A stretch of DNA of 64,000 nucleotides from Candidatus Cloacimonetes bacterium HGW-Cloacimonetes-2 (GTDB lineage: Bacteria; Cloacimonadota; Cloacimonadia; Cloacimonadales; Cloacimonadaceae). The stretch's first letter is position 1. Each line of letters starts with the position of its first letter. The stretch lies in contig PHBP01000007.1 of assembly GCA_002842035.1 (NCBI GenBank), forward strand, positions 1-64,000, given 5' to 3'. This document shows positions 5,671-63,499 of the stretch, piece by piece. The translations under genes were made by a program, and so were the position numbers. Below the pieces are notes generated by a model. The model had not been told where the DNA came from and made no database searches. It was given only the letters and a program-made list of their open reading frames with translations.

Positions 5671-5704
5671 AAAAGAGGTTCAGCCTTCGGGTTGAACCTC
5701 TTTT
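5671..5704 (+). terminator. Rho-independent terminator after the PorE-like gene
   Basis: A 15-bp stem (5671-5685 with 5690-5704, including one G-U pair) is capped by a UUCG tetraloop and ends in a run of T. The AAAAGAGG/CCTCTTTT ends would let it work in both directions. It closes the operon that begins before the window. Confidence 0.93.
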
Positions 5705-5716
5705 ACTTTCTGCTTA

Positions 5717-5771
5717 GATTCCTGCTTGTATCCTGCTTCTATCCTGCATCAATCCTGCTTGAAGAAGCAGG
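5717..5771 (-). repeat. 11-bp tandem repeat element, copy A (gap before gyrB)
   Basis: The 5705-6236 gap holds this array. Read on the minus strand, 11-bp units of the form aagCAGGATnn follow each other without spacers (plus-strand units at 5717, 5728, 5739 and 5750). The final unit makes a small inverted repeat (CCTGCTT gaag AAGCAGG, 5754-5771). Just upstream in the minus sense lies CTTAAAGCATTG (5773-5795), which resembles CTAAAGCATTG beside copy D. The rest of the gap is AT-rich, with a possible gyrB promoter near 6141-6167, a TGACA-aaa-TGTCA palindrome at 6116-6128, and two short open frames of doubtful meaning (5825-5920 plus; 5837-6007 minus). Confidence 0.85.
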
Positions 5772-6140
5772 AATCAACTGCCTTGCAATGCTTTAAGATT
5801 GTATGATCTAAAGTGAGGCTATAAATGAATAGAAAATTAGATAAAGAATTGGGACGGCTTACGCGTTATTATAGTAAAATTACCATATTCACCACTCAAG
5901 TCGATCACGGATATCTCTGAAAGGTCGATCTCTCTACTACGATGATTTTTGATAGCTTCATAGTGATTTTGGCAGATGGGACAGCTCCCGAAAACGACAA
6001 ATTCCGGCTATTATTTGCTGTCAAACTGCCAGCTGTTTATGAGACACTTATATACGTAGTCCTAAAGTACTATATTACTATCAGTTACAATCTTGTAATA
6101 ATCGAACTTAGTTCTTGACAAAATGTCAGTATCATTTTTA

Positions 6141-13510: not shown

Positions 13511-13605
13511 ATCCTTTATCTCCCGAGAAAGAACTCCCCCATCCCCGCTCTTTGGTTGAAACGATGCTAATCACTTGTATCTCAGCTATATGATGCTTGT
13601 TCATA

Positions 13606-13660
13606 CAGGATTCAAGCAGGATACAAGCAGGATAGAGGCAGGATACAAGCATCCAATCAA
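13606..13660 (+). repeat. 11-bp tandem repeat element, copy B
   Basis: The gap 13511-13861 is filled by this composite element. Four perfect-period 11-bp units (CAGGATTCAAG, CAGGATACAAG, CAGGATAGAGG, CAGGATACAAG at 13606, 13617, 13628 and 13639) end in a CATCC-type unit at 13650. About 60 bases upstream is GATGCTAATCACTTG, related to the ATTGCTAAGACATTG flank of copy F. Downstream, 13712-13773 forms an imperfect hairpin (arms around TCTCCCACGATTCTCCC and GGGAGA...TGGGAGA) that is also found after copy D. No gene is seen in the gap. Confidence 0.9.
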
Positions 13661-22523: not shown

Positions 22524-22689
22524 ACAATACAAATCCTCATTTTATCTAATTTTTTCGCATGCCAAATCAAGTCAATACTTATTTTCAGATTAACATTGAA
22601 GTCAATTGGAGTCTATCATAGGCTTTTTCACATACAATAGCGCTCCAATCTCTTTCTCTTTGACTAGCAGCATCTTAGAAGCCTACTGA

Positions 22690-22757
22690 AAGCTTCTATC
22701 CTGCATCGCCATGCAGGCTTCAAGCAGGATACAAGCAGGATAGAGGCAGCAAAGCAA
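22690..22757 (+). repeat. 11-bp tandem repeat element, copy C (divergent gap)
   Basis: The gap between cmk-ispH (minus) and the CapA gene (plus), 22524-22871, carries a perfect 7-bp hairpin CCTGCAT-cgcc-ATGCAGG (22700-22717). It runs directly into units CAGGCTTCAAG, CAGGATACAAG and CAGGATAGAGG at 22714, 22725 and 22736. The left arm of the hairpin is itself preceded by a reverse unit (CTTCTATCCTG). The remaining bases hold the two divergent promoters, which I cannot place securely; TTGACA at 22799-22804 is a candidate -35 for the plus gene. Confidence 0.88.
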
Positions 22758-22871
22758 TGAGAGACAGAGCCTTGCGCATTCGATCATCACATATTATCTT
22801 GACAGATTCTTTGCTTTGAATTTGGAATGATATTGGCACATAAGTGATTCACGAATATACGGGAGTAGCTC

Positions 22872-35407: not shown

Positions 35408-35477
35408 AGCAGATCAAAAGCAAATCAAGTCGAACGTGGTTCGACTTGATTTGCTCTTGATTTGCTCTTGATATGCT
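35408..35477 (+). repeat. 11-bp tandem repeat element, variant copy G with a perfect 17-bp hairpin
   Basis: The gap 35224-35726 between maf (minus) and serC (plus) contains this element. The left side has units AGCAGATCAAA and AGCAAATCAAG; the right side has CTTGATTTGCT twice and CTTGATATGCT (35445, 35456, 35467), the reverse complements, also in an 11-bp period. The centre 35419-35455 is a perfect 17-bp inverted repeat with a GTG loop. It could be a bidirectional terminator or a structural element. The unit differs from CAGGATNNAAG but keeps the period and the AAG...ATC ends. Promoters of both divergent units must also lie here. Confidence 0.85.
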
Positions 35478-35726
35478 GTAGATCATAGCTAAGGATGTAG
35501 GATTCATCATTTAGGTACAGCTGATAATACCATCATAAATGCGCTTTAAATGTTCATTTAGGAGCGAATTTTTGTGCGGATTATGCATAACAATAGTTCA
35601 GGGTTCTATGACTGCTATCGTTTGGAATATAACCTGAAATCTGATAGACAAAAAAATTCCTTGCCTGAAAAGACGACATCGTTTTTCCTTGTAACATTAA
35701 AACAAAATACATCCAGGAGGATTATT

Positions 35727-45862: not shown

Positions 45863-45945
45863 TAATAGAATCCACTGCCTTCCCATCTCTTTTGACCTCC
45901 TATTCAATGGAACATTGCTAAAGCATTGTCCTCCTTTTGCTTCAT

Positions 45946-45995
45946 ACTTGTTCAAGCAGGATTCAAGCAGGATAGAAGCAGGATTGATGCATCCT
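45946..45995 (+). repeat. 11-bp tandem repeat element, copy D
   Basis: The gap 45863-46182 holds three good units (CAGGATTCAAG, CAGGATAGAAG, CAGGATTGATG at 45957, 45968 and 45979), then a CATCC end. It is preceded by CATTGCTAAAGCATTG (45913-45928), a flank shared with A and F. Downstream, 46047-46100 is an imperfect hairpin containing TGTGGGAGAATCGTGGGAGA, the same sequence seen in reverse in copy B. No gene is seen; the last 80 bases hold the promoter region of the 46183 gene, which I cannot pinpoint. Confidence 0.88.
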
Positions 45996-46182
45996 ATGAA
46001 AAGGAGCACAGTCCGGCTTGACGCCTCCTAAGCTCCAAGCCACATTTCTCCCGACTTACTCCCTCATATCCCCCAGTTTGTGGGAGAATCGTGGGAGATA
46101 CATGGTAGAGTTGCTCGGTGAAGTTTAAGTGAAGAGGGAACAATAATTGCTTTAAGTATTTGCTATCAATGCAGGAGCAATT

Positions 46183-55958: not shown

Positions 55959-56044
55959 TGGATGAATCAGTATCCTGTAACACTCAGCACATCCTTTATC
56001 CCCTCTCTTTCGATGATACATTATTAAGTGATTGATAATCAGCT

Positions 56045-56106
56045 GCTTGATGCATCGCCATGCAGGATTCAAGCAGGATAGAAGCAGGATAGAAGCATCC
56101 TACCAG
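56045..56106 (+). repeat. 11-bp tandem repeat element, copy E
   Basis: The gap 55906-56417 holds a hairpin TGCAT-cgcc-ATGCA (56051-56064), units CAGGATTCAAG, CAGGATAGAAG and CAGGATAGAAG at 56063, 56074 and 56085, and a CATCC end unit at 56096. Upstream CATTATTAAGTGATTG (56019-56034) matches the flanks of other copies loosely. A different 11-bp array follows at 56179. The rest of the gap shows no gene; the last 40 bases hold the tRNA promoter. Confidence 0.9.
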
Positions 56107-56178
56107 GCAGAGCGCATCAGGCTCCCTCGAAGCACCCACCTGAATATCTGTAGGATAGAAGCTGTGATTCCGCTGTCC

Positions 56179-56222
56179 CACAGGGGATTCACAGGGGATG
56201 CACACGGGCTGCACAGGACGGA
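56179..56222 (+). repeat. Second 11-bp tandem array with a different unit
   Basis: Four consecutive 11-bp units CACAGGGGATT, CACAGGGGATG, CACACGGGCTG and CACAGGACGGA. The period equals that of the CAGGATNNAAG arrays, but the unit is different. It lies about 70 bases after copy E in the same gap. An 11-bp period cannot keep a reading frame, so this is not coding. Confidence 0.85.
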
Positions 56223-56377
56223 GCTTTGAGATAGAGTAAAGAATTCAAGGATCAGACCAAGGGCTATCTGGCTCTAATACATTATCTGGCAACGCCTTGG
56301 CGCTTAAGCTTCTGAACCTGCCGATGCTCCTGTGAAGGTTTTACACAAGAAATCCTTATCCTATCAGCTTTTTTATA

Positions 56378-63274: not shown

Positions 63275-63430
63275 GAGCTTCCAGATATAATACACTTCAT
63301 TCATATCTCAGGCTTGAGCTAAATCTTTGTGTTACAAAATCACTAGCAAGTCCATAAATCCACCTAATCCAATCCTTTAGCGTCCTCTTTGAATGAAACA
63401 TTGCTAAGACATTGAAGGATAGTCGTTTCC

Positions 63431-63499
63431 TGCGTCCTCATGCAGGATTCAAGCAGGATACAAGCAGGGAGCAAGCATCCTGGAAGCATCCAATCAAAC
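63431..63499 (+). repeat. 11-bp tandem repeat element, copy F
   Basis: The gap 63275-63661 holds CCTGCGT-cctc-ATGCAGG (63431-63448, one mismatch) leading into units CAGGATTCAAG, CAGGATACAAG and CAGGGAGCAAG at 63445, 63456 and 63467, then CATCC-type units at 63478 and 63489. Upstream TTGAATGAAACATTGCTAAG (63390-63409) is the best-conserved flank, shared with copy D. No gene is seen before the mutL-like gene. Confidence 0.88.

Follow-up and report, generated by a model that had tools for sequence, protein, structure and literature searches.

The window, that is, the whole stretch of 64,000 nucleotides that was analysed, belongs to a genome of 2.5 Mb in 14 contigs (G000, the source genome) and carries six arrays in which short units of the CAGGATNNAAG kind follow each other every 11 bp. 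All six arrays named in the original prediction were located, each with three to four units and mostly followed by a closing CATCC unit; array F, however, starts at 63443 and not, as previously placed, at 63445, which was off-register by 2 bp. Every array is embedded in a longer element, hereafter type 1. Element A (5704-5826) lies on the minus strand, with its array of CAGGAT units at 5714-5757, and the other five lie on the plus strand: B (13537-13659; array 13606-13649, closing CATCC unit at 13650), C (22645-22767; array 22714-22746), D (45888-46010; array 45957-45989), E (55994-56116; array 56063-56095) and F (63374-63496; array 63443-63486). Element C, located in a divergent intergenic region, is degenerate and retains one exact unit only. 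None of 40 mononucleotide shuffles of the window produced a lag-11 segment with a score near theirs.

The exact pattern of two consecutive CAGGATNNAAG-like units with period 11 occurs 87 times in the source genome (55 forward and 32 reverse matches), whereas a reversed control of the same pattern has no exact match in the whole genome. With up to three mismatches allowed, the numbers are 185 and 0, respectively. The two-unit matches are spread genome-wide, so that confinement of the arrays to the window, an outcome that would have spoken against the original prediction, is not observed. Merging the matches in the stretches that were read yielded 58 type 1 elements. The genomic total is at least 58 and probably 80 or more, because the mismatch search reveals further copies and two sites on contig C14 lie outside the sample.

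When aligned on the first unit, the copies are conserved from about −69 to +54, with no conservation beyond. The arrays are real, but each represents only one arm, the 3′ half, of a conserved element of ~120 bp, which also has a conserved 5′ arm and ends of the form CTCCCTTT...AGGGAG. The approximate consensus, weakly conserved positions included, reads CCTTTTGCGCYCCCTTTCAATGAAACAATGCTAAAACATTGCAGGACAGTTGTTTCCTGCTTGTTCATG in the 5′ arm, CAGGATTCAAG CAGGATAGAAG CAGGATACAAG in the array and CATCCTATCAAGCAGGGAGCA at the 3′ end. Mean pairwise identity among the copies is 0.55 in the 5′ arm, 0.57 at the 3′ end and 0.26 (the level expected by chance) in the flanks; the value of 0.80 for the third unit is biased upward, since the copies were gathered by two exact units. 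A matrix scan based on the 5′ arm alone recovered 56 of the known copies and one more match, which overlaps a known L024 element on the opposite strand, while a 3′-end matrix produced eight weak extra matches compared to four in shuffled sequence. The number of units per array varies from three to five among copies. A closing CATCC unit is present in 40 of the 58 copies, in agreement with the earlier statement that most arrays end this way, and ATG stands 5′ of the first unit in 21 of them. The hairpin CCTGCATCGCCATGCAGG, proposed to open several arrays, is genuine in array C but is not a general feature of the copies. The dyad of type 1 is weak, and its expected centre did not stand out in an anti-diagonal scan.

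Type 1 elements are intergenic: 54 of 58 are free of ORF overlap and the remaining four overlap unverified ORFs, as anticipated from a unit length that is not a multiple of three. Their orientation relative to the neighbouring genes (18 same/same, 15 same/opposite, 14 opposite/opposite and 9 opposite/same) shows no strand bias with respect to genes, and none was found with respect to GC skew. With genes defined by a simple ORF rule and no gene finder, intergenic regions of the source genome holding an element are convergent in 13, divergent in 8 and co-directional in 29 cases, versus 1, 17 and 23 for regions lacking one. Thus, convergent regions hold more elements than expected and divergent regions fewer; relatives share the former tendency but not the latter. 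As a side observation, the convergent intergenic region at L040 (3850-4290), which holds a type 1 element, is bordered by genes whose orthologues adjoin period-11 elements built of other words, the left gene in genome G003 and the right one in G002.

Several observations bear on the dispersal of the elements. Loci L011 and L049, located on different contigs, share 98% identity over exactly the element, whereas both flanks are unrelated, indicating that the elements disperse. Two copies in L050, situated 8.5 kb apart, are near-identical as far as the third unit and then diverge. In relative G010 there are about 64 copies, and the 30 that were read constitute a near-identical palindrome of ~90 bp with clean ends. 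Visual inspection of G010 copies and of L049 revealed no target-site duplication. At orthologous positions of the source genome and its relatives, elements are mostly found at different places; the excess of shared sites is weak (5 of 31 gene sides versus 6 of 154, P = 0.02, with intergenic length unadjusted).

Type 1 is not the only period-11 repeat in the source genome, and two further instances inside the window had been overlooked in the original prediction. Directly behind element E, on the plus strand, lies a type 2 element (56121-56224, boundaries set by eye), in which the word CACAGGGGATN recurs every 11 bp from 56179 onwards. Further type 2 loci are L018 (13452), L024 (14603), L030 (347) and L031 (about 3929). 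In the window, L018, L024 and L030 a distance of 116-120 bp separates the first type 1 unit from the start of the type 2 array behind it, and in L031 the two are also close; such type 1 and type 2 composites resemble BIMEs. The 5′ arm of type 2 carries CTGT motifs on the same 11-bp phase as the array. They occupy 14 of 20 helical slots (−5, −16, −27 and −38), opposite CACAG of the 3′ arm, although the 20 slots are not independent because the five copies are of common ancestry. The six-base spacers between the CTGT motifs do not match the other arm. The second overlooked instance, at 35408-35483 (no strand assigned), is made of a third period-11 unit, CTTGATTTGCT, and comprises a perfect to near-perfect palindrome (35408-35466) and more units up to 35483. 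The same unit is present again as a palindrome in L018 (7597-7624).

Do relatives have the same family? The pair of CAGGAT units is absent in 60 relatives, including two of the same genus, and a scan of ~85,000 species genomes returned only seven isolated stretches. Hence, among the genomes searched, the word is private to the species of the source genome, but the 11-bp spacing and the general plan are common to relatives. The original prediction is thus borne out in part, namely, as regards a dispersed, non-coding family with helical spacing. The period-11 words of relatives are AAGCGGTATGA in G002, GACTCTTCGCC in G001, CTTAGTATAAC and ATCAAGCGTTA in G003, TCAATACGGAC in both G010 and G015, and GCTTACCCATT and CCCATATCATT in G011. 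One more word used in the family is TTAATCAAGCG. The same-plan elements of these other species are mostly long palindromes. In G001, G003, G010 and G015 the elements are almost perfectly palindromic, with tiny loops between arms that measure 30-50 bp. The distribution of words is patchy even at short distances: ACGGACTCANT is found in 4 of 50 genomes, belonging to four genera, and in genus g6 the TACGG word occurs in some species and the TTAATCAAG word in others, with one species having both and some having neither. No period-11 element was detected in the sampled 85 kb of G004 or 114 kb of G007. The outer ends (CYCCYTT...AAGGRG) look alike across species, a resemblance that suggests common descent but falls short of proof.

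The constancy of the step is best seen in 1.40 Mb of family sequence not selected for arrays. This sample contains 47 lag-match segments at lag 11, compared to a single one at lag 12 and none at lag 10, and 28 of 36 hairpins with arms of at least 24 bp match themselves best at 11 bp, one does so at 6 bp and none at any other lag. Most long hairpins observed between genes in these genomes are thus explained by period-11 elements. Periods of 7-9 are present as well, partly as other simple repeats. In other families of the same order, 249 kb of sequence contained one lag-11 segment. Three additional repeats deserve mention. Genome G002 has 7-bp and 8-bp tandem repeats (L065, 215-295, and other stretches), some of them palindromic (GAGTGAT). 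In G025, L243 contains the longest period-11 array seen, a 231-bp run (1060-1290) of ~21 units (CAAGGATTGAG and variants), ~200 bp upstream of a gene for an IS200-like Y1 transposase. Finally, many G010 copies (L158-L191) end directly in the palindromic repeat GTAGCGCAGCATGCCGATGCTGCG, likely a true GTAG-type REP, forming composite repeats.

The original prediction had found no named family of this form, and none of those considered here, namely, Rfam, REP/REPIN, integron attC and CRISPR, matched. At the gathering score, Rfam models detected only tRNAs in the window and six loci of relatives. Integron attC sites were rejected because the integron integrase model TIGR02249 had no match above the cut-off and its weak matches recur in 14 of 14 control genomes, and CRISPR because the units abut directly, with no unique spacers. 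REP, BIME and REPIN sequences, which are associated with RAYTs (PMC3116915, PMC3733652, PMC6006769), likewise are short palindromic intergenic repeats of tens to hundreds of copies that vary in sequence by species and form composite clusters; the depletion of elements in divergent regions of the source genome is a further common trait. However, REPs are defined as 20-40-bp palindromes with a 5′ GTAG/GTGG or CGTC tag (PMC3733652, PMC6006769), whereas the present elements measure ~90-125 bp, lack the tag, end in CYCCYTT...AAGGRG and are built of 11-bp units. MITEs are similarly non-coding, ~100 bp long and dispersed as near-identical copies with inverted arms, but the internal 11-bp helical build sets the present elements apart; no target-site duplication was visible in the copies inspected. 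Cyanobacterial STRR heptamers and the TAACTGA direct repeats of Beggiatoaceae are also dispersed in intergenic DNA and lineage-specific and consist of short tandem units (PMC4679880). Their step is 7 bp, as opposed to one helical turn here. Those repeats are not known to have opposed arms or defined ends. The end arrays of the Tn7 and Mu transposases are composed of 22-bp sites (two turns) that are inverted at the two ends. With our elements they thus have in common protein sites that are repeated in phase with the helix and inverted between the two ends; our elements differ in having one putative site per 11 bp, arms with no gene in between and dozens of solo copies. No published description of Cloacimonas/Cloacamonas repeats or of 11-bp palindromic repeats was found in the open-access literature. 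The distribution of the elements is like that of BIMEs, REPINs and MITEs; what sets them apart is the size, the ends and, above all, the 11-bp helical construction.

In our assessment there is about an even chance that the arrays form the core of a MITE/BIME-like mobile element of ~120 bp, which is dispersed and non-coding and bears helically phased protein-contact motifs in two opposed arms. Such an element would spread by copying and would present one short motif per helical turn, with opposite orientations in the two arms. A putative DNA-binding protein, probably an oligomer, would touch the helix once per turn, always on the same face, and several phased contacts would give avidity. The protein might be either the mobilising enzyme or a host factor that keeps the element; word and binder would be swapped jointly, leaving each species with its own word and a constant 11-bp step. 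The palindromes of relatives and type 2 clearly display opposed arms, type 1 only in part. In type 2, the retention of the CTGT slots together with unmatched spacers is what would be expected if about half of each turn were contacted and the rest were free to vary.

A second explanation, which may hold together with the first and would supply its mobiliser, views the elements as substrates of a Y1 HUH transposase (RAYT or IS200-like) that recognises and moves a single-stranded hairpin. We consider it possible but rather improbable. The respective domain (PF01797) is present in 37 of 50 genomes of the family and in all genomes rich in copies of the two counted words, the first two Y1-less genomes sampled (G004 and G007) yielded no period-11 element in the 85 and 114 kb covered, and the want of target-site duplications in the inspected copies fits as well. 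Nevertheless, G024, G032 and G031 (the last being 82% complete) have period-11 elements and no PF01797 match. Moreover, a cognate RAYT is typically flanked by its own repeat, and this is not the case for the Y1 genes examined in the source genome and G010. The only Y1 (RAYT-like) gene of the source genome (L145, G000:C2:454945-458148), in or beside DNA methyltransferase-like genes, is flanked not by type 1 but by 12-bp-period TCTGTGGGTCCG repeats and GTAGGAGCGACATCCTGTCGCTC palindromes of GTAG type; the L146 gene of G010 is likewise flanked by another repeat. One G015 copy does lie 24 bp behind a Y1 gene, so that a cognate RAYT may exist in some species. The six loci within 400 bp of Y1 genes are not clearly above the rough expectation of 3-4. 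A RAYT as the cognate mobiliser was set aside, the correlation being suggestive, the linkage unsupported and three genomes standing as counter-examples. In view of the Y1-less carriers and of the other repeats at Y1 genes, the elements are not classified as REPs here.

The perfect palindromes of several relatives would also be explained by a selected hairpin, either an RNA stem-loop, such as an mRNA 3′-end stabiliser or an RNase III-type substrate, or a DNA cruciform. The near-perfect palindromes of G001, G003, G010 and G015, the enrichment in convergent intergenic regions and a step of exactly 11 bp (lags of 10 and 12 being nearly absent), the length of an A-form RNA turn, all fit this explanation. 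Against it, type 1 copies of the source genome display no covariation between arms, their RNA fold is little better than that of shuffled sequence (mean z of −0.74, compared to −0.39 for the flank control), and no Rfam model matched at the gathering score. In 17 palindromes of G015, arm agreement at variable positions is close to that expected under independence, except for one position (16 versus 12.7 expected); the variable positions recur at 11-bp intervals. In the sets amenable to the comparison, arm pairing is thus probably not the conserved property. An RNA hairpin was rejected, as folding, covariation and z-scores all failed to support it, and a selected hairpin of either kind appears unlikely.

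Still less probable is phased curvature, in which the step would serve nucleoid packing by setting intrinsic bends or supercoil writhe, and no factor would read the individual words. A general ~11-bp periodicity of bacterial DNA is commonly credited to the pitch of negatively supercoiled DNA (PMC4132750, PMC516772), and the step here is exactly 11 bp; however, that periodicity is a statistical nucleotide bias, whereas here whole words and not just AA/TT are repeated, and the words are patchy among close species. A+T is unphased within the 14 words tested (P = 0.70), so intrinsic AT-phased curvature is not the general principle. Functionless minisatellites arising by independent replication slippage can practically be dismissed: unit numbers do differ between copies (3-5) and isolated arrays of the same word arise by chance in unrelated genomes, but slippage accounts neither for conserved flanking arms and dispersal as whole units nor for a single period over many words and both palindrome arms.

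Taken together, the results on the arms, type 2 and AT phase point to a protein, probably oligomeric, that would read one helix face per turn in opposed arms. A broader reading is that, family-wide, these are selfish or maintained elements which conserve their geometry, a word per turn in opposed arms, with one word giving way to another between species. We advance it tentatively, as a possibility with the balance somewhat against it; if true, it implies that a dedicated binding protein and its target co-evolve rapidly. Sequence is what defines the interspersed palindromic repeats of bacteria, whereas here, in the sampled species of one family, the 11-bp step is constant and the sequence changes even between members of a genus. 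A constant step combined with turnover of the word points to a dedicated binder or mobiliser that evolves fast, and the words of the different species represent a natural series of phased DNA sites for finding this putative binder.
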